43,804 nucleotides of DNA, taken from contig NZ_RZNH01000045.1 of NCBI RefSeq assembly GCF_013141825.1, positions 1 to 43,804 of the forward strand, written 5' to 3'. The notes beneath the pieces were generated by a model that saw only the letters and a list, made by a program, of their open reading frames with translations, did no database searches and had not been told where the DNA came from. The position numbers and the translations under genes were made by a program. Positions 6,452 through 27,452 of this stretch are shown here, in pieces. The stretch is from Marinifilum caeruleilacunae. Lineage in GTDB: Bacteria; Bacteroidota; Bacteroidia; Bacteroidales; Marinifilaceae. The stretch's first letter is position 1; each line of letters starts with the position of its first letter.

Positions 6452-9400
6452 TTATATATTTATTGTTTCTCTTTCTTCTTTTACTTCAGGATACTTCTTC
6501 TTCTCAGTCATGTAATAAATCAGTGGCACAATGACCAGGGTTAAGAATGTTGAAGCGATTGATCCACCCATTAAAGAAATGGCAAGCCCCTGGAAAATAG
6601 GATCGAACAAGATCACTACGGCTCCAATTACAACGGTTCCTGCAGTTAGTAAAATTGGTGTAGTTCGAACCGCTCCGGCCTCAATTACCGCCTCTTTTAG
6701 CGGCACTCCTTCGGCCAGTCGGAGGTTAATAAAGTCAATCAATAAAATGGCATTCCGCACCATAATTCCTGCCAGGGCAATCATTCCAATCATCGATGTT
6801 GCAGTAAAAAACGCACCCATCAGCCAATGGCCAATCAATATCCCGACAAGGGAAAGAGGAATGGACACCATCATTACAAATGGAACTTTAAAATTCTGGA
6901 ACCAGCCAATAATCAACATGTAAATAACCAATAATACAACGGCAAAGGCAGCACCCAAATCGCGGAACACCTCGAAGGTAATTTGCCATTCTCCATCCCA
7001 CTTTAGACTGTAATTGTCTTCGAAAAATGGTTGTTGCGTATATTCTTCCAGCAATTCATATCCTTCGGGTACATTCACATCACTTAAATGATCGGAAATT
7101 TCCATGATTCCATATACCGGACTTTCCAGTTTTCCTGCCACATCGGCAGTTACATATACTACTCTTTTCTGGTTTTTTCTATAGATGCTTTTCTCTTTTA
7201 TTTTCTCCTGAATATCAACAATATCACCCAAAGGAATCAGTTGGCCCGATTGAGTAAGGATATTAACCTTCTTCAGATCTCTAAGACTGCTTCTCTCCTT
7301 TTCCTGCAATCTCAGGTCGATCCCTACTTGCTCGTGTTCGTGTTCCTGGTACAATTGAGAAACCTCTTGTCCTCCCAGTGCCATATTTAAAGTATGAACC
7401 ACCTGTTGGGTAGAAACACCAGCGAGCATGGCTTTTTCCTTATCAACATTAAACTGATATTCGGTCTGATCATCCTCAACCAACCAGTCTACATCCACTA
7501 CATCCTGGGTTTTCCCAAATATTGATTTTACCTGCTTGGCCACATCAACCTGTCCTTCGGTATTTGGACCGTAAATTTCGGCTACCAGGGTCGACATTAC
7601 CGGTGGTCCCGGAGGAACCTCTACTACTTTTACATTGGCATTAAACTTCTTGCCAATCTTCTGTAAACCAGGTCGCATGGCTTTGGCAATATCATGGCTT
7701 TGCAAATCTCTATCGTGTTTATGAGTAAGGTTCACTTGTATATCAGCAACATTCGATCCTCTTCGCAAATCGTAATGACGAACCAATCCATTAAAATTAA
7801 TGGGTGCTGCTGTTCCAACATAGGTCTGATAATCAACCACATGATCTTGCTGTGCAATATAGGCCGCCAATTCTTTGGCTACCACGGCTGTACGTTCCAG
7901 TGTTGTACCTTCGGGCATGTCAATTATCACCTGGAATTCATTTTTATTATCGAAAGGCAACATCTTTACAGCAACCATTTTAAAATAGATCAATGTTGTA
8001 GAAGCCAATAGAAGTACACTAACAATTCCAATAAACCCCCAACGCTTCACTCTAGATTCCAACATGGGGCGAATGGTGGCAGCATACATTTTATAGATCA
8101 ATGAATCTTCGAGCTTAAATACTTTTTCTTCTTTGTCTTTCTTTTCATCATGATGTAGTAATCGATATGCCAGGTAAGGGGTAATGGTAAGTGCCACCAG
8201 CAAAGAAAATATCATGGCAATGGAAGCACCAATTGGCATTGGACTCATGTAAGGCCCCATTAATCCGGAAACGAAAACCATTGGAAGAACGGCAGCAATA
8301 ACTGTAAAAGTTGCCAAAATTGTTGGGTTTCCTACCTCATCAATTGAACGAAGGGCAGCCTGCATGAGCGGCAATTTCTTCATTTTAAAATGCCTGTGCA
8401 TGTTTTCGGCGATAATAATCGAATCATCAACCACAATACCTGTTACAAATACCAAAGCGAATAGTGTAATTCGATTTAATGTATAATCGAGGAAGTAGTA
8501 ACTAAACATGGTTAATGCGAAAGTGATTGGTACAGAAAGGAATACCACCAATCCACCACGCCAACCCATGGCCAGCATTACTACAAATGTTACGGCCACA
8601 ATGGCTCCAAGCAAATGCAATAACAACTCTGCTACTTTATCCGATGCTGTTTCTCCATAATTTCGGGTTACATCAACCTGAACATCAGAAGGAATCAAAT
8701 CTTTTCGAAGCGATTCAATTTTGCTAAGAATCTGTTCTGAAACTTTCATGGCATCGGCGCCACGACGTTTTGCTACCGATATGGTTACAGCCTGATATTC
8801 TCCCTTAAATTGCGCTTTGGAATCATTAATTTTTCCATATCCAAAACTGACATACTGTGATGGAATCTCCGGTCCATCAATCACTTGTGCTACTTGCTTA
8901 AGGTAGATCGGACTTTCTTTGTAAACTCCCACCACCAGGTTGGAAATATCATCGGCATTTTCTAGAAACTTGCCCGTTTCCACAAGGTATTCCTGGTCGT
9001 TACTATTAAATGATCCTGAACCAACCTGCTGATTCGACACTTGAATTTGCCTGGAGATACTTAAAGCATCGATATTATAACCAGCCATTTGTTCGCGGTT
9101 TAATACAACACGAACCTGACGCGAACGACCACCAATCACCTTGGTTTCTGACACTTCGTTTACCTTTTCTATTTCGTTATTGACTTCCTGGGCGATTCTT
9201 TTTAAATGAAAATCATCGTAGGTTTCACTCCAAAAAGTTAGTCCCAACACAGGAACATCATCAATTGCACGGGTCTTAATCAATGGCATGGAAGTACCTT
9301 TCGGCATTTCATCCATGTGTTTCATAATCTCGTTGTACATTTTAACAAGAGATCTCTCAACATCTTCGCCTACATAAAACTGTACGATTAACATAGCTTG

Positions 9401-20160: not shown

Positions 20161-20189
20161 GGGGTATTCTCCGAACCAATTGTCTTCCT
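20161..20189 (+). promoter_or_regulatory. ECF-type promoter of the TonB receptor gene (copy 1)
   Basis: GGGGTA (20161-20166), 12 bases, ATTGTC (20179-20184), two bases, CCT (20187-20189). The same pattern with identical spacing recurs at 26336-26364. It does not resemble the housekeeping TTTG/TAnnTTTG promoter. The -10-like block ends 40 bases before the ATG. The likely factor is the ECF sigma encoded at about 22732-23313. Confidence 0.65.
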
Positions 20190-20224: not shown

Positions 20225-22585
20225 ATGAAAAGAAAAAATTGCATTGTTCTAATCCTCCTGGCATTATTGGGAAGTCTGCCAGTTAGTGCTCTAAATATCA
20301 ACACACAATACCATCAAAACATTCGAGGAAAAATAACAGACCATGAAACCAAACAAGCTTTAGTTGGAGCTAATATTATCGTTCTAAACTCCGACCCATT
20401 TAAAGGAACAGCAAGTGATATAGATGGCAATTTTATTTTAGATCATGTGGAAATTGGCAGAGTTTCTCTACACATAACTTGTATGGGGTACGAAGCAAAA
20501 ACCATTGCGAACATAGAGTTAGGTTCGGCAAAGGAAGTGTTTTTGGAAATAGAGCTGATAGAATCAATAACAAAGATTCAGGAAGTTAAAGTTTATCCGA
20601 AAACAGCCAAACATGAAACACTTAATAAAATGGCCCTGGTAAGTGGTCAAGCTTTTACAGTTGAAGAAACCAGCAGGTACTCAGGGGCTTTAAACGATCC
20701 GGCACGAATGGTTTCGGCCTATGCAGGTGTTTCTTCCGATGGTGAAGGTTCCAATGAGATTATCGTTCGAGGAAACTCGCCCAAAGGCATTCAATGGCGA
20801 CTGGAAGGAATCGAAATTCCAAATCCCAATCATTTTGCCGACGAAGGCTCAACCGGAGGAGCTGTAAATGCCCTAAACAGCAACTTACTTCGCAATTCCG
20901 ATTTCTTTACCGGTGCATTTTCGGCCGAGTATGGGAATGCCTATTCCGGAATTTTCGATATTAATTTACGATCTGGAAACAATGCAAGGCATGAGCAAAC
21001 ATTTGGCTTTAGCACAATGGGAATTGATTTCACCCTTGAAGGTCCAATAAAGAAAGGCTATTCTGGTTCTTATTTGGCCAATTATCGTTACTCTTCTCTC
21101 GAATTGTTGAACAATGCTGGTATAGTTGATTTCGACGGCATTCCAAAATACCAGGATGGATCGTTTAAACTGGTATTGCCAACAAAAAAGGTGGGTAAGT
21201 TTAGCATTTTTGGTCTGTTTGGAAAAAGTAACATGCTAAATAAAGAAGAAACAGATGATGAAAGCATTACGCTTGGAGAAAACGAAATCGATTCGGATTT
21301 ACAAATAGTTGGAATGACCAATCTCTTGCCTATTGGAAAAAAATCTTACCTAAAAAACACATTGGCATATTCTGCAAGCAACAGTAAATACAAATCAAAC
21401 ATTTTGGGTAATGAGGATCGAATGTTTTTGGCTTTAAAAGAGAAGTATCAGCACGATTATCTAAAATTTGTGTCGAATTTTAATACCAAATTGAATGCAA
21501 AAAACAGTATAAAAGCAGGAATTCAATACACTCATTTGGGTTTTGATATCAGTAGCCAGAACGATTTTAAAAATACGGGCTCTTTTATTAGCGATGTAAA
21601 TTCCGATGGCAATTCTCACCTGCTCCAATCCTTTGTGAATTGGAAATATCGAATCACACCAAAGCTCAGTCTTGTATCGGGAGTACATGCAAGTTATTTT
21701 TCTTTAAATGATGACCAAAGCATTGAGCCTCGCATTGGACTGAAATACAATTTTTTGCCCAATCAGTCTCTGTCATTTGGTTTTGGTGTACACAGTAAAC
21801 TGGAAAGTCTTTCCACTTATTTTATCCAGTTAATGGATGAGAATGATATGCCATACACGCCCAATAAAAATTTAAAAATGAGCAAGGCAAGGCATTATGT
21901 ACTGGGCTACAACAATCAATTGAATCGTAATTTGCAGTTAAAAATAGAAGCCTACTACCAGGATTTGTACGATTTGGCTGTGGAAAATGATCCGAATAGC
22001 AAAATCGTGCTTCAGGATATTAAGGAAGGACTTGCCGATTATGATTTTGTAAACGAAGGAAGTGGTAAAAATTATGGAATTGAGCTTACGTTGGAAAGGT
22101 TTTTTCACAACAATTTCTACTACCTGTTTTCGGGTTCTCTTTATCAATCGAAATTTACAGCATTGGATGGAATTGAACGAAACTCAAGATACAATGGGAA
22201 TTACACTGCCAATCTGTTAATTGGGAAAGAATACAAAGTTGGTAAAGAAGGTAAGAACAGAATTGGCTGGAATGGAAAAGTGAGCTTTCGTGGTGGACAG
22301 TATTACACTCCTGTTGATTTGATTAAAAGTCAGGAAGCTGGTGAAACCATTTATAAAGAGGATAGCGAATTCTCGATACAAGCCGATGATCTTTTTGTTC
22401 TAAATGCAACCTTTAGCTACAAGGTGAATCGAAAAAAAACAAGGCATGAGTTCAAATTGGATATCAAAAACCTAACAAACAACCAGGCTAAAATACTGGA
22501 ACGTTACAATAAAGCAACACATGAAATCGAGAATGGAGAACAATTATCGATACTACCAAGTTTGTATTACATTTTACATTTCTAA
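20225..22585 (+). CDS. TonB-dependent outer-membrane receptor with CarboxypepD_reg-like N-terminus
   Basis: 786 residues. Signal peptide about 1-22, then a carboxypeptidase-regulatory-like domain (about 32-118), a plug (about 150-255, with NEIIVRGNSPKGIQWRLEGI and FSAEYGNAYSGIFDINLRSG), and a 22-stranded-type barrel to the C-terminal Phe (SLYYILHF), the usual outer-membrane signature. It has no STN domain, so it cannot itself act as a FecA-like transducer, and no SusD gene follows, so it is not a classic glycan-uptake pair. It precedes the sigma/FecR/STN genes and carries an ECF-type promoter. Substrate unknown. The start at 20225 gives a good signal peptide. Confidence 0.9.
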   Translation: MKRKNCIVLILLALLGSLPVSALNINTQYHQNIRGKITDHETKQALVGANIIVLNSDPFKGTASDIDGNFILDHVEIGRVSLHITCMGYEAKTIANIELGSAKEVFLEIELIESITKIQEVKVYPKTAKHETLNKMALVSGQAFTVEETSRYSGALNDPARMVSAYAGVSSDGEGSNEIIVRGNSPKGIQWRLEGIEIPNPNHFADEGSTGGAVNALNSNLLRNSDFFTGAFSAEYGNAYSGIFDINLRSGNNARHEQTFGFSTMGIDFTLEGPIKKGYSGSYLANYRYSSLELLNNAGIVDFDGIPKYQDGSFKLVLPTKKVGKFSIFGLFGKSNMLNKEETDDESITLGENEIDSDLQIVGMTNLLPIGKKSYLKNTLAYSASNSKYKSNILGNEDRMFLALKEKYQHDYLKFVSNFNTKLNAKNSIKAGIQYTHLGFDISSQNDFKNTGSFISDVNSDGNSHLLQSFVNWKYRITPKLSLVSGVHASYFSLNDDQSIEPRIGLKYNFLPNQSLSFGFGVHSKLESLSTYFIQLMDENDMPYTPNKNLKMSKARHYVLGYNNQLNRNLQLKIEAYYQDLYDLAVENDPNSKIVLQDIKEGLADYDFVNEGSGKNYGIELTLERFFHNNFYYLFSGSLYQSKFTALDGIERNSRYNGNYTANLLIGKEYKVGKEGKNRIGWNGKVSFRGGQYYTPVDLIKSQEAGETIYKEDSEFSIQADDLFVLNATFSYKVNRKKTRHEFKLDIKNLTNNQAKILERYNKATHEIENGEQLSILPSLYYILHF

Positions 22586-22662: not shown

Positions 22663-22708
22663 CTTCTGCATTAATAAAATATTACTTTATCAAACCTAAA
22701 AATTCATC

Positions 22709-22716
22709 TACCTTTG
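22709..22716 (+). promoter_or_regulatory. Housekeeping-type -7 element (TACCTTTG) of the ECF sigma gene
   Basis: An exact TAnnTTTG match. No clear TTTG is seen about 20 bases upstream, so strength is uncertain. It overlaps the first possible TTG codon of the sigma gene, which argues that translation starts further downstream. The sigma gene would thus be made by the main sigma factor, while its targets use the ECF promoter. Confidence 0.45.
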
Positions 22717-22731
22717 CTTTTACTAACTAGC

Positions 22732-23313
22732 TTGACATTGACCACGGAGCATCGCATACATTCAGATTGCATTAGCAGAGAAGATTTTGAAAACCTGTTC
22801 AACGATCACTACTCTCGTTTATGTGCCTATGCCTATAACTTTTTGAAGGAACAAGAAGGATCGGAGGAGATTGTGCAGGAGGTCTTCTTCAAGCTTTGGA
22901 TCAATCGATCAGAAATTCAGATCAACAGCTCTATGGAATCCTACCTGTATCGTTCGGTTAGAAATGCAAGCCTCAATCTTATCAAACACATCAGCATTCG
23001 GGAAAAGTACAAGGAATACAATAAGGAGGCAATAGAATATGATGAACAAATCGATAAAGATCCGATGAATGCTTCGGAGTTGGAATTGAAAATCAGGGCC
23101 AGTATCGATAAACTTCCCGAACAGAGAAAGAAGATTTTTATCCTGAGTAGATATGAACAATTAAAATACAAAGAAATTGCCGAACAGCTGGGCATATCAG
23201 TTAAAACAGTTGAGAACCAAATGGGAAAAGCTTTAAAATTCCTACGTGAAGAATTGGCCGATTACCTCCCATTGATTGTCTTGTTTTTCAAACATTTTTT
23301 CAATGGAGAATAG
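22732..23313 (+). CDS. ECF RNA polymerase sigma factor (Bacteroidota FecI-like)
   Basis: About 193 residues. Region 2 is visible as FENLFNDHYSRLCAYAYNFL, with EEIVQEVFFKLWINR at its core, and region 4 as LPEQRKKIFILSRYEQLKYK with a helix-turn-helix EIAEQLGISVKTVENQM. The frame is open from TTG 22714, but that codon lies in the -7 element, and no ATG exists before region 2. TTG 22732 or 22738 are the likely starts, so the N-terminus is uncertain. A FecR-type anti-sigma gene follows after 80 bases. It probably recognises the three GGGGTA...ATTGTC sites in this module. Confidence 0.9.
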   Translation: MTLTTEHRIHSDCISREDFENLFNDHYSRLCAYAYNFLKEQEGSEEIVQEVFFKLWINRSEIQINSSMESYLYRSVRNASLNLIKHISIREKYKEYNKEAIEYDEQIDKDPMNASELELKIRASIDKLPEQRKKIFILSRYEQLKYKEIAEQLGISVKTVENQMGKALKFLREELADYLPLIVLFFKHFFNGE

Positions 23314-23341
23314 GGTGAAAAGCAAATTCAATTGTCTTACT
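23312..23341 (+). promoter_or_regulatory. ECF-type promoter before the FecR gene (copy 3, weaker)
   Basis: AGGGTG (23312-23317), 13 bases, then ATTGTCTTACT (23331-23341). The -10-like block matches the other two copies (ATTGTC, W, T, M, CT). The -35-like block is degenerate, or shifted by one base. It lies 53 bases before the FecR ATG and would drive FecR and the STN protein. Confidence 0.45.
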
Positions 23342-23393
23342 ATAAAGAAAACAAAACACCATAAACAGGCTGACAGACAGAAATTAATTGTGC

Positions 23394-24419
23394 ATGAAAA
23401 GTGACAACCTACATATAGATGATAGCTTATTGGCCAAATTTCTTTTGGGTGAAACCACAAGCAAAGAACGAGGCATTATCATCGATTGGCTGGATGAAAA
23501 ACAGGAAAACCGCGATCAGCTTGATCAACTGGAGTCGGTGTGGCTGGAAAGTGGCAAACTAAAGCCAAAGCCGATTCCCGTAAACAAAACACTTGCCTGG
23601 TCGATTCTTTCCAGGCGAATGGATGAACATGAGGCAAGCCTGTCTCCTTCCAGTAAAAAATACTCCAGTTTTAAAATCGCCATCTACACGGCTGTGGCTG
23701 CTTCTGTTTTGGCATTTATTGGCATTTTCAACTGGTATTCAAATCAACCTGCAGAAATCGAGCAGTTTGTACTTGCTAATAATTCCACAGAAACACTAAA
23801 AGAAATTCTTCCCGATGGATCGGAGATCTGCTTGAATGAATCTGCTCAGATTCGCTATGAAACCAATAAAAATCAGCAAAGAATTGTTCACCTGGAAGGA
23901 GAAGCATTCTTTAGTGTAAAAAGAGATACACTGCGCCCATTTATTGTACACGCTGGCATTGGAGGTGTAAAAGTACTGGGAACAAGTTTCCAGGTAAAAG
24001 AAAGAGCTAATGGCGATATTGCGGTGGATGTTAGCTCGGGGAAAGTAGAATTGTTCCGTACGAACAGAGCCACAAATGATACGCTTCATTTAGTTTTGGT
24101 GAAAGATGAAAGTGGATTAATTTCGAATTTGCAGGATACAATTATACGTGTAAGCAGTAATTCTTCAGCTTTCTTTTGGGTAGATCAGAGACTTTCGTTT
24201 AGAAACAAGCCATTAAAAGAGGTGTTTGAGATATTGGAAGTTTGCTACAATGTTGAAATTATATCCGATGATCCTGAAATTAATGACAAATACTATACTT
24301 CTTCATTTATCGATAACGATGTAGAAGAGGTGATTGAAGTAATCTCGAATACCTACCAGTTTTCTTATGCAAAAGAGAACAATGTAATTACAATAACCAG
24401 CAATGATAGCAATGAATAG
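23394..24419 (+). CDS. FecR-family anti-sigma factor (with DUF4974)
   Basis: 341 residues from ATG 23394; the open frame allows TTG 23388, which I reject. The cytoplasmic N-terminus (about 1-90) should bind the sigma factor. One membrane span lies at about 93-112 (AIYTAVAASVLAFIGIF). The FecR domain follows (about 120-220, ILPDGSEICLNESAQIRY, GEAFFSV, VKVLGTSFQV) and a C-terminal DUF4974 (about 265-335). DUF4974 is the usual partner for an STN domain, and the next gene encodes one. Its stop overlaps the start of the next gene, which suggests coupled translation. Confidence 0.93.
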   Translation: MKSDNLHIDDSLLAKFLLGETTSKERGIIIDWLDEKQENRDQLDQLESVWLESGKLKPKPIPVNKTLAWSILSRRMDEHEASLSPSSKKYSSFKIAIYTAVAASVLAFIGIFNWYSNQPAEIEQFVLANNSTETLKEILPDGSEICLNESAQIRYETNKNQQRIVHLEGEAFFSVKRDTLRPFIVHAGIGGVKVLGTSFQVKERANGDIAVDVSSGKVELFRTNRATNDTLHLVLVKDESGLISNLQDTIIRVSSNSSAFFWVDQRLSFRNKPLKEVFEILEVCYNVEIISDDPEINDKYYTSSFIDNDVEEVIEVISNTYQFSYAKENNVITITSNDSNE

Positions 24420-26259
24420 AACTCTCTGTCTCACAATACTAATGGCCTGTATTTTCAATCTTTCGAAGATACAGGCTCAGAACTTTCTGGAAAAGGAGAT
24501 TCTTGTGGAGGTCAAGAATCAAACTACAGAATCGACCATGTTTATTCTTGAAAAACTAGGTGGCTTTAACTTCTCATACGACGCCATGCTTCTTGATCCC
24601 ACAAAAATGGTATCTATTGAAGGAAAACGAGCAAGCCTGGAAGAGATTCTCGATGAACTTTTCCAGGGCAGATTTACCTATAAAGTAATAGGTTCGCACG
24701 TAATTTTACAGGCCAAAAATAAAGATGGATTGAACAATACCATGTGGATTTTATCGGGTATCATTAGTGATTCCCAGGGCAATCCGCTGGAAAATGCCAT
24801 TGTTTACGAGGTCAACAGGCAGGCTTCCTTCATTACCAATCCCGATGGCAGATATATGCTTCGTCTTGAAGGTGATCAACCGCTTGGAATTAATTTTAGC
24901 TGTAAGGGATATCAGGACACTGTTGCTTTTATTCAATCCAATCAGAACAAAAGTTTCAATATAGCACTTCACCCATGGAAAGCTGAAAATATTTTTAAAG
25001 AGCATCCAACATTTTCGCAAAGTTTGCGACCAAAAAACAAGGCAATCAATTGGGCATATACGGAGAAAGATTTGAAGGATTTAGCCATGGTAAACCTCAT
25101 GGTCCCAAGAAAAACCCTCTATGTTTCGAACAATTTAAATGTACAGGAAGTTCGACTTGTACAAGTCTCATTTATTCCTTCCTGGGGTACCAATCGATTG
25201 ACCAATGGATTGGTGACAAACAAATATTCTTTGAATATAATTGCTGGTTATTCGGCCAATATCGATGGGCTGGAGATTGGAGCTGTAGCCAATATTATCC
25301 GCCAGGAAATGAATGGAGTACAAATTGCTGGTGCCGTAAATGTTGTGGGAGAAGACGTAAATGGTATACAGGTAGCCGGTGCAGTAAATACCAACCTTGG
25401 CAATATGGATGGTGTGCAAGTGGCTGGGGCCGTAAATCGTGTAAAGGGCGACATTAAAGGACTGCAAATTAGTGGAGCAGTAAACACGGCAGCTGTAACA
25501 TCGGCGGATAGCTTATCGCTGAAAGGCTGGAATGGCCAGTTAAGTGGTGGAATTAACCTTCATGGTGGAGAGAGAATTAACCTACAGGTGAGCGGCGCTT
25601 ACAACCAGGCCAATTCGGTGGATGGACTTCAGGTATCAGGAGGAATCAACTATGTGAAAGGAACCACAAATGGATTGCAGCTATCGGCACTTTACAATCA
25701 TACCTATAAGTTAAGAGGAATTCAGTTTGGCTTAATCAATCATGCCGATACCATAGAAAATGGCTTTCCGATTGGTTTGGTGAATATCATTAAAAACGGT
25801 TATCACAAATGGGAATTCTCGAGCGACGAAAGCTTCTACCTGAATGTAGCCTACAAAACAGGTGGTAAAAACCTGTACAGTTTCTTAAAGATTGGCGTAG
25901 GAAAATATTTAAATGCGGCCTACGGTATTGGTTATACAACCAACCCTAAACGTAAATTCTCGGTAAACCTGGATCTTTCGGGTTCGGCCCTCTTCAATAC
26001 CGATTCAGATTATGATCTTTTCGCAGGAGATATTTACCGTGCTCAGCTGGGTCTTAATTTCAAGCTATCGGATCAACTGGTTTTAAGTACCGGGCCAGCT
26101 TATAATTTCTGTAGTCCTGACAAAAAACAGGAAAAAGTTGCTAATGGTAATTTATCGAGCCAGAACACTCCATTTTATGGCAATTACCATATCGACAAAG
26201 CTGTAAGCAGCTTAAAAAACCAGTATTGGTTGGGATGGCAGCTTGGCCTAAGATTCTAA
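24403..26259 (+). CDS. STN-domain protein fused to a 16-residue-repeat outer-membrane-like domain
   Basis: 618 residues. Signal peptide about 1-26 (starts at 24403 or ATG 24412). STN domain about 27-105 (ESTMFILEKLGGFNFSYD...LEEILDELFQGRFTYKVIG). CarboxypepD_reg-like domain about 115-192. From about 250 it resembles the next gene product. Residues 288-360 contain back-to-back 16-residue units of the form (D/N)G(V/L/I)Q(V/I)(A/S)GAVN, and looser copies run to about 460. The end is strand-rich and closes with GWQLGLRF, a C-terminal Phe typical of outer-membrane barrels. The repeats resemble LA_2272-type surface repeat proteins. No TonB plug or receptor barrel is present, unlike normal STN receptors. 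It probably signals to the FecR protein from the outer membrane. Confidence 0.8.
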   Translation: MIAMNRTLCLTILMACIFNLSKIQAQNFLEKEILVEVKNQTTESTMFILEKLGGFNFSYDAMLLDPTKMVSIEGKRASLEEILDELFQGRFTYKVIGSHVILQAKNKDGLNNTMWILSGIISDSQGNPLENAIVYEVNRQASFITNPDGRYMLRLEGDQPLGINFSCKGYQDTVAFIQSNQNKSFNIALHPWKAENIFKEHPTFSQSLRPKNKAINWAYTEKDLKDLAMVNLMVPRKTLYVSNNLNVQEVRLVQVSFIPSWGTNRLTNGLVTNKYSLNIIAGYSANIDGLEIGAVANIIRQEMNGVQIAGAVNVVGEDVNGIQVAGAVNTNLGNMDGVQVAGAVNRVKGDIKGLQISGAVNTAAVTSADSLSLKGWNGQLSGGINLHGGERINLQVSGAYNQANSVDGLQVSGGINYVKGTTNGLQLSALYNHTYKLRGIQFGLINHADTIENGFPIGLVNIIKNGYHKWEFSSDESFYLNVAYKTGGKNLYSFLKIGVGKYLNAAYGIGYTTNPKRKFSVNLDLSGSALFNTDSDYDLFAGDIYRAQLGLNFKLSDQLVLSTGPAYNFCSPDKKQEKVANGNLSSQNTPFYGNYHIDKAVSSLKNQYWLGWQLGLRF

Positions 26260-26335
26260 ATCATTCGTATGTTAGCATTTGTAGAGTGAACTCATACAAA
26301 TATTAGAACAGATAAACATTTTTTTTCATGCAGTA

Positions 26336-26364
26336 GGGGTAGATTTCTGATCGATTGTCATCCT
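26336..26364 (+). promoter_or_regulatory. ECF-type promoter of the repeat-protein gene (copy 2)
   Basis: GGGGTA (26336-26341), 12 bases, ATTGTC (26354-26359), two bases, CCT (26362-26364): the same arrangement as at 20161-20189. It lies 30 bases before the ATG at 26394. The GATTGT part also forms an inverted repeat with ACAATC at about 26371-26376, which may be chance. Confidence 0.65.
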
Positions 26365-26393
26365 GATATACAATCAAAACACAAATAAAAAAA

Positions 26394-27452
26394 ATGATTC
26401 AGATGACAAAAATTTCAGTACTCCTGATAAGCATTTCTATTTTCTTCGGATACCATTCAAAGGCTCAAAAGCATTCGAAATTCCAGGCAAGTTTTGTGAG
26501 TCCGATTGGCACCAATGGGCTAGAATCCAGGTACACCAGTAACGATTACTCCTTTAACCTGCTAATGGGAACCAATGGTGGTCTTCGAAAGATGGAGATT
26601 GGTGGACTTGCGAATGTTAATTCGGGAGCGGTAAGTGGCTTTCAAATGGCTGGTATCGCAAATATAAACGCTGAAAAAACTAAAGGGTTTAACCTGGCTG
26701 GAACTTGTAATTTACTTGCCAAAAATGCGGAAGGATTTCAATTGGCAGGTGTATGTAATATCGTTGGTAAAGAAGCGCATGGAGTTCTTATTTCAGGTGC
26801 AAGTAACATTAGCCAGGAATCGGCTTCGGGTTTTCAATTGGCTCCTCTTAATTTGGTTGGTGGTAATTTTAGTGGTGTACAATTGGGTGTCTTTAACCAG
26901 GTAAAATCGCTAAAAGGAATGCAAATCGGTATTGTTAACATTTCGGATAGTACCGAAAATGCAACTCCTTTCGGAATTTTTAGCATTGTAAAAGGTGGAT
27001 ATTATGCCCTGGAGCTTTCCTACAGCCAGAGCATGCAAGCTAATTTAAGCTATAAAATGGGTGTGGAACATTTGTATACCATCTTTACCTTCGGTTTCGA
27101 CAATTATAAAAACAAAGACCTTTTCAGATATGGTTTAGGATTTGGAAGCATGCTATCGCTTGGAAAAACTCACAAACTTGCCCTGGAGGCCACTTGCAGT
27201 CAGTTGGTATACGATAACAGTTGGGATGATTTAAACCTGCTGAATCGCCTAAAAACCAACTTCCACATGCATGTAAGCCCCGATTTTGCGCTATTTGCGG
27301 GCCCAACTTTCAATGTTTACATTACGGATAAAAAAATTGGTGAAAAATATGGTACTATCGATATGCCTCACTCCATTTACGATCATGAAAGTAGCAAAAA
27401 CAAGTTATTTATGTGGATTGGATTTAATGCTGGTATTTCATTTACATTTTAA
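26394..27452 (+). CDS. Repeat-containing outer-membrane-like protein, paralogue of the STN fusion
   Basis: 352 residues; signal peptide about 1-25 (ATG 26394 or 26403). Residues 30-352 match the C-terminal half of the preceding protein in layout: SFVSPIGTNGL, NDYSFNLLMG, then 16-residue units at about 65-183 (SGFQMAGIANI, EGFQLAGVCNI, SGVQLGVFNQ, KGMQIGIVNI), GGYYALELS and a strand-rich tail ending SFTF. It lacks the STN and carboxypeptidase-like domains. The pattern resembles LA_2272-type surface repeat proteins; function unknown. It has its own ECF-type promoter and is followed by a strong terminator that closes the module. Confidence 0.8.
   Translation: MIQMTKISVLLISISIFFGYHSKAQKHSKFQASFVSPIGTNGLESRYTSNDYSFNLLMGTNGGLRKMEIGGLANVNSGAVSGFQMAGIANINAEKTKGFNLAGTCNLLAKNAEGFQLAGVCNIVGKEAHGVLISGASNISQESASGFQLAPLNLVGGNFSGVQLGVFNQVKSLKGMQIGIVNISDSTENATPFGIFSIVKGGYYALELSYSQSMQANLSYKMGVEHLYTIFTFGFDNYKNKDLFRYGLGFGSMLSLGKTHKLALEATCSQLVYDNSWDDLNLLNRLKTNFHMHVSPDFALFAGPTFNVYITDKKIGEKYGTIDMPHSIYDHESSKNKLFMWIGFNAGISFTF

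Follow-up and report, generated by a model that had tools for sequence, protein, structure and literature searches.

Cell-surface signalling is known mainly as an activity of TonB transporters. In FecIR-type systems such as FecIRA and FoxIRA, an extracytoplasmic function (ECF) sigma factor adjoins a FecR-type anti-sigma factor, and the STN domain is carried by a TonB-dependent transducer with a plug and a 22-strand barrel; docking of STN on the anti-sigma factor is known for FoxA and FoxR from the available part of that report (PMC11637429). The available part of the work on PUMA3 of Pseudomonas aeruginosa (VreA-VreI-VreR) describes an STN domain that is uncoupled from a TonB barrel and acts with an ECF sigma factor and a sigma regulator; VreA, of 23 kDa, lacks a barrel and carries a TolA/TonB-like domain at its C terminus (PMC2729926). 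Within Bacteroidota, the Dma1-3 proteins of Bacteroides hold an ECF sigma factor through an anti-sigma chain extending to a beta-barrel in the outer membrane, each Dma being a single polypeptide of anti-sigma domain, helix, disordered tether and barrel, according to the accessible portion of that source (PMC13088901). Here we analyze a locus in a window of 43,804 nucleotides, the whole stretch of DNA considered (contig NZ_RZNH01000045.1, forward strand), from the 5.27 Mb genome of Marinifilum caeruleilacunae. Marinifilum belongs to Marinifilaceae, class Bacteroidia, and the close relatives found were Marinifilum and Labilibaculum. On its plus strand the window carries, in order, a TonB receptor, an ECF sigma factor, FecR, an STN::CarboxypepD_reg::repeat protein and an STN-less repeat paralogue.

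Our analysis points to cell-surface signalling in which the STN::CarboxypepD_reg::repeat protein would replace the TonB-dependent transducer, a reading that we put at roughly two in three. The locus resembles FecIRA and FoxIRA in its sigma-FecR-STN gene order, its STN and FecR_C domains, and a sigma-type promoter-like motif before the predicted targets. It differs in that the STN carrier is a repeat protein for which neither a plug match nor a TonB-box-like string was obtained, whereas the TonB receptor beside it lacks STN. Compared with VreA, the protein belongs to another lineage, has no TolA/TonB-like domain, and carries CarbopepD_reg_2 and repeats after STN; the available part of the VreA report mentions no such repeats (PMC2729926). 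Unlike in Dma, as far as its accessible description goes (PMC13088901), FecR and the STN::repeat protein are separate open reading frames (ORFs) in the window and the mapped loci, and are presumed to meet via STN. VreA and Dma are the nearest precedents, and we class the system as a variant of cell-surface signalling, not as a category of its own. A previous reading of the DNA from its letters alone (the sequence-only reading) knew of no described system with this layout. This stands for the STN::repeat fusion, of which we found no description in a literature search that most subscription-journal papers lay outside, but the available part of the VreA report already provides STN without a TonB barrel (PMC2729926).

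An STN domain on a repeat protein

The FecR anti-sigma factor is encoded at 23394..24419 (ORF 23388-24419, ATG at 23394) and contains FecR and FecR_C domains at 54.2 and 58.5 bits, both above cut-off. Overlapping its 3′ end, a gene at 24403..26259 encodes the 618-residue STN::CarboxypepD_reg::repeat protein, and the 352-residue paralogue follows at 26394..27452; the sequence-only reading had located all three correctly. The STN domain lies at the N terminus of this presumed outer-membrane partner (residues 55-105; 24565..24717), where PF07660 matches at E 7.9e-5 and 22.8 bits, so that the window protein on its own stays below the curated cut-off of 28.4. A model built from the STN segments of 38 relatives, with the clade of the window left out, matches at E 4.6e-21, a value that reflects kinship more than an independent domain call because these segments were gathered by a model seeded partly with the window STN. 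With the same model the receptor, FecR and the paralogue were not reported at E 10. Next comes the CarboxypepD_reg-like domain (CTD; residues 118-189; 24754..24969; 32.9 bits, cut-off 32.2). PF07660 is matched by 35 and CarbopepD_reg_2 by 41 of 44 aligned proteins, the window protein included (E 0.05), and plug and TonB barrel families are absent both among the matches of the window protein and among the 17 families listed for the 44 members. The TonB receptor at 20225..22585 has CarbopepD_reg_2, plug and barrel domains, the plug match falling just below its cut-off (23.2 versus 23.9 bits), and no STN match with Pfam or with the model from relatives. Between this receptor and FecR the ECF sigma factor (TIGR02985; 183.2 bits, cut-off 126.4) is placed at 22714..23313 with an uncertain start. 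Around 22700-22760 the listed TTG start of this gene overlaps the promoter-like string TACCTTTG, which we take to resemble the housekeeping -7 box of Bacteroidetes, and the true start probably lies further downstream.

The same arrangement was found in six orthologous loci (L009-L014), from Marinifilum breve, M. fragile, three Labilibaculum and one Marinifilaceae metagenome bin. The order of receptor, sigma factor, FecR and STN::repeat protein is kept in all six; four of them (L011-L014) also have the paralogue, which was not found in L009 and L010. In a more distant relative at 30% identity (L040), sigma, FecR and STN::repeat genes are followed by a PorZ-like gene, and no receptor was recognized. 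More widely, a profile of the repeats and C-terminal region matches 79 of 393 genomes of the order (E 1e-8), and a profile spanning the entire STN::repeat protein finds matches in 148 of 395 genomes in the phylum (E 1e-12), many of the latter matches covering just the STN/CTD part of long receptors or just the repeats. As these searches found matches in many genomes, the idea of a local oddity was rejected. From the order we fetched 80 regions, chosen among the matches listed and not covering all 79 genomes, and from the phylum search 38 regions. The fetched loci hold 61 STN-bearing repeat proteins spanning 32 family codes, namely the six orthologues, the L040 protein, 37 from within the order and 17 from elsewhere in the class.

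With a limit of 2.6 kb from the repeat part, on the same strand, FecR was found upstream of 58 of the 61 STN::repeat proteins, together with a sigma factor in 55, as in the window; these modules (the set of sigma, FecR and STN::repeat genes) supplied the sequences for the STN, FecR and sigma models, so the counts describe this family, not STN proteins at large. One of the loci without FecR (L091) lies on a contig that ends 999 bases upstream. Among STN-less repeat proteins FecR is in reach of 21 of 98, all in loci with a separate upstream STN gene: in 18 cases a full STN::repeat gene comes first, and for the other three, all frames of L099, it is a separate STN::CTD frame. Fisher's test for this difference gives p = 1e-21, which is indicative only, as the loci are related. 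Four further STN-less repeat proteins have a sigma factor only. In these loci (L041:6808-9370, L042:6610-9196, L083 and L115) an ECF sigma factor with a C-terminal extension directly precedes the repeat protein, and neither FecR nor STN was found; by eye, the extension in L041 and L042 comprises a hydrophobic stretch and a Lys/Val-rich tail. These extended sigma factors are reminiscent of Dma3, in which the sigma domain is part of the protein.

STN was absent from all 31 TonB receptors recognized in the fetched loci, 26 of them in STN::repeat loci, a count that may miss receptors unlike the model. Together with the position of FecR, this bears out the earlier proposal that the repeat protein, rather than the receptor, carries STN. 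The sole repeat-less STN protein above 700 residues lies in L193, which is not an STN::repeat locus. A TonB-box-like string, sought between STN and repeats (window protein excluded) or in the first 220 residues of receptors, occurs in 4 of 61 STN::repeat proteins versus 23 of 31 receptors. A receptor like that of the window lies within 4.5 kb on the same strand in 22 of the 61 modules, among them the six orthologues; 4 further modules have one at 5.5 to 6.3 kb. The other 39 modules have none within 4.5 kb, and in 23 of these contig ends do not account for the absence, since more than 4.5 kb of sequence lies on both sides; two of the 23 (L125 and L134) have a receptor slightly beyond that distance.

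As a control, a FecR_C search of six genomes gave 62 matches, 30 with loci, two of which are modules (L010, L012, L013 and L014 were left out here and from the tree and distance matrices below). Of the 28 other FecR loci, 24 have STN in the longest downstream frame, none of these with repeats, and 4 lack STN, so the repeat protein occupies the usual position of the STN partner of FecR. The second FecR of the window's own genome (G000:C2:142224-142847; locus L006, 297-2895) is followed by a 527-residue STN::CarbopepD_reg_2 protein in which Pfam finds no TonB receptor, repeat or other domain; judging by this protein, STN::CTD may be a module that is attached to partners of several types. An "STN and carboxypeptidase regulatory-like domain-containing protein" also appears in a Parabacteroides transcriptome table, in the available part of that article (PMC12893687). 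One STN::repeat protein with no FecR or sigma factor found nearby (L135:7047-8786) has an STN without the usual FSYN string and without a Pfam STN match at E 0.01; STN perhaps decays once its partner is lost. In L086 a DUF2807 adhesin-like gene (8398-9132; 133 bits) lies between the STN::repeat gene and the paralogue.

Descent of the module

In a FecR tree of 79 rows, a quick reconstruction with open forks and some long branches, 50 module FecRs form a group free of others (Shimodaira-Hasegawa-like approximate likelihood ratio test, SH-aLRT, 81), and a wider group adds L192 to give 51 module FecRs together with two others (SH-aLRT 95). The module label requires at least four changes on this tree, two of them forced by starred branches. 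The tree also left out X_L218 and X_L225, which are modules, as well as X_L235 and X_L241, and its row MOD_L193 is wrongly labelled as a module, no repeat protein having been found in L193. Across 48 modules, with those lacking a clear sigma, FecR or STN::repeat frame excluded, pairwise distances correlate between FecR and STN/CTD (r = 0.77), FecR and the repeat part (0.75), and STN/CTD and the repeat part (0.81), values that none of 999 permutations reached. Sigma distances correlate less (r 0.44 to 0.66). Together, the tree and the distance correlations indicate a pairing that is apparently old and stable and not the outcome of a recent move, and sigma, FecR and STN::repeat protein appear to be an old, co-inherited unit. 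The sequence-only reading had spoken of an STN domain that had moved from a receptor, wording that implies a local event and that does not suit the old lineage suggested here.

A shared promoter-like motif

The motif GGGGTA-N12-ATTGTC occurs exactly at 20161..20184 (plus strand), 5′ of the receptor and in all six orthologous loci, and at 26336..26359 (plus strand), 5′ of the paralogue and kept there in L011-L014. A degenerate copy with two mismatches lies 5′ of FecR at 23313..23336 (plus strand), and none stands before the sigma gene of the window. Allowing two mismatches, the window has 6 matches versus 2.5 expected, a number reached by 4 of 100 shuffles; we count the weak copy at 23313 because GGGTTA-N12-ATTGTC is kept at the same place in L009-L014. 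It had been proposed that the paralogue follows under the same ECF promoter. The motif is indeed common to receptor, paralogue and FecR, but the paralogue has its own copy.

A similar association extends to 54 loci, from which L010-L014, L077, L097 and L099 were left out. The pattern GGGGT-N14-TTGTC precedes 29 of 142 labelled genes versus 2 of 522 unlabelled genes: 6 of 21 receptors, 8 of 51 sigma genes, 8 of 50 FecR genes and 7 of 20 STN-less repeat genes, with none before 54 STN::repeat genes. Thirteen other spacer lengths gave no copy before the 142 labelled genes and, taken together, one before the 522 unlabelled genes; the reversed pattern gave none. We read the motif as the putative promoter of this sigma group. 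The genome of the window holds three exact copies, two being those of the receptor and the paralogue; the third, within the 3′ end of an ORF, looks like chance and was set aside. In a Labilibaculum-like genome, the third exact copy (L244; G028:C32:88493) stands between a different sigma ORF and an ORF bearing FecR_C, downstream of which begins a further gene that is STN-like by eye.

Repeat units and fold

The repeat region of the STN protein extends from residue 289 to about 440 (25267..25722) within a repeat part of about 390 residues. Strict GxQx[AGST]GxxN cores start at residues 305, 321, 337, 353 and 408 of the STN protein and at 82 and 114 of the paralogue, and none of 10000 shuffles of either protein gave more than one. 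The units are therefore real, as the sequence-only reading had it, but its strict period of 16 residues is too strong: spacings run 16, 16, 16, 16, 40, 15, 16 in the STN protein and 16, 16, 16, 16 in the paralogue, and across 115 repeat proteins 16 (248 cases) and 15 (119 cases) are the commonest. The consensus unit is G-hydrophobic-Q-hydrophobic-[AS]-G-[FIVL]-x-N-[IV]-x-x-G-[ND]-V-K, with Q and N in register. The C-terminal region of the STN protein (25765..26256) has predicted strands, from the strand pattern of a low-confidence model and from the alignment, and is a possible outer-membrane barrel; both proteins end in Phe (GLRF in the STN protein, where it had been noted, and SFTF in the paralogue). 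The paralogue passes the cut-off of 25 bits for the LA_2272 repeat family of NCBIfam (NF047436; 34.1 bits), whereas the STN::repeat protein does not (20.0 bits), and we found no paper on the function of this family; the name LA_2272 turned up in two papers.

Units appear to be gained and lost singly. Regular expressions located N- and C-terminal anchors in 73 of 117 proteins, and the distances between these anchors are 94, 109, 124, 141, 157, 174, 188, 204 and 220 residues with intermediates, which corresponds to odd and even unit counts. In a comparison of 154 repeat regions, homologues sharing at least 40% identity most often differ by gaps of 14-17 residues, with 724 of 1530 internal gaps of 12-70 residues, counted over overlapping pairs that are not independent. 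One-unit gaps occur in five pairs at 71, 70, 66, 64 and 62% identity. As a single extra strand would invert an up-and-down barrel, we favour a beta-solenoid with one coil per unit over barrel strands, a solenoid that is probably joined to the C-terminal barrel.

Proposed mechanism and alternatives

In the mechanism that we propose, the C-terminal region would lie in the outer membrane, the 16-residue units would stack as a beta-solenoid, and STN and the CarboxypepD_reg-like domain would hang in the periplasm, where STN would dock on the FecR C-terminal domain. A ligand, a surface contact or faulty assembly would change the repeat part and thereby alter the STN-FecR contact; FecR would then be processed, and the sigma factor would turn on more FecR and STN::repeat protein, the STN-less paralogue and the receptor. 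A sensor that lacks both a plug match and a TonB-box-like string should not need TonB, and we take it to be probably TonB-independent.

Several observations weigh against this proposal. Gene neighbourhood is no proof of STN-FecR binding, and neither FecR nor a sigma factor was found beside the STN::repeat genes of L135 and L181, nor a sigma factor beside FecR in L097, L107 and L189. The module FecR of L189 falls outside the main group of the tree, and shared host descent alone can give correlated distances. A strict copy of GGGGT-N14-TTGTC is absent from 33 of the 54 loci and present at least once in 21. With one mismatch, genome counts versus the reversed control are 15 versus 13 (G000), 8 versus 15 (G037) and 10 versus 22 (G028), and since these are not above the control only exact copies were used genome-wide. 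The fold is exposed as well, since the solenoid reading rests on repeat statistics where structure and fold searches yielded no reliable model. Structure prediction of both repeat proteins, the check suggested by the sequence-only reading, gave poor AlphaFold models (mean predicted local distance difference test scores of 34.4 and 46.8); a Foldseek search with the paralogue model gave no match at E 0.001, and a PDB sequence search with the repeat profile nothing at E 1. Instead of solenoid coils, the units might be transmembrane strands of a porin-like barrel, with signalling otherwise as proposed. Unit positions 1-11 have few charges except Glu at position 3, and the hydrophobic positions 2, 4, 8 and 10 alternate with Q3, A5 and N9 in a manner that suits a membrane strand. 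The non-significant Foldseek matches include BamA barrels, along with beta-helical GlmU, and the closest gapped pairs (six, all with L200, at 65-73% identity) differ by two units. The odd and even unit counts and the one-unit gaps speak against such a barrel, as does the similarity of neighbouring units, which is no lower than that of next-but-one units (1.46 versus 1.45) and on which hairpin pairing of units was rejected; we regard the porin-like barrel as doubtful. That the repeat part is a degenerate 22-strand barrel of a divergent TonB transducer, engaged in ordinary FecIR signalling, is very improbable. The order of STN and CarboxypepD_reg is also that of STN-bearing receptors in the control genomes, and the C-terminal Phe would fit, but the part has about 390 residues, its units vary singly, no plug or TonB barrel match was obtained, 57 of the 61 proteins lack a TonB-box-like string, and a separate STN-less TonB receptor stands in the window. 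This objection, which the sequence-only reading had raised against itself, thus seems not to apply.

Two other alternatives concern what is sensed. The STN::repeat protein might report its own folding, export or insertion, the unfolded or missing protein freeing FecR so that the regulon restores repeat proteins and receptor. Such an assembly checkpoint has a homeostatic layout in its favour, as FecR/STN::repeat genes and the repeat paralogue are the predicted outputs, and the available part of the FoxA report describes a signalling domain that protects FoxR without signal (PMC11637429). Folding control leaves unexplained the motif-bearing TonB receptor of the window and its orthologues, and the proximity of a receptor in 22 of 61 modules, and we consider it unlikely. 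That proximity, with the 4 more distant cases and the motif common to receptor and module in the window and orthologues, would also suit an STN-less receptor that is the real sensor and importer, with the STN::repeat protein as an adaptor docking on it and relaying to FecR. Yet 39 modules have no receptor within 4.5 kb, although one elsewhere in the genome is possible, and the next gene in L040 is PorZ-like; this arrangement too seems improbable.

Returning to the repeat protein as sensor, we advance a broader version tentatively and would not quite call it likely: a class-wide Bacteroidia signalling branch in which a TonB-independent outer-membrane solenoid of varying coil number, tied to FecR by STN, controls an ECF regulon of solenoid paralogues and an STN-less receptor. 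If so, sensing would be split from transport, and coil number would be the evolving part of the sensor. A stable, class-wide repeat-protein sensor would show that sensing and import are separable, give a function to a family of repeat proteins so far without one, and add a second Bacteroidota route, beside Dma, from an outer-membrane protein to an ECF sigma factor, while the promoter motif could be used to find regulons directly. The recurrence of the circuit across many related families suggests a way of sensing the cell surface that has not been described.

Repeat proteins of other classes

In the 19 regions fetched from other classes (L194-L211 and L213), the repeat proteins are without STN. 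Seven genomes of another class (L196-L201 and L213) encode repeat proteins of 489-524 residues with no STN or FecR found nearby, and in L196 a peptidyl-prolyl-isomerase-like ORF, recognized by eye, lies upstream of the repeat protein.

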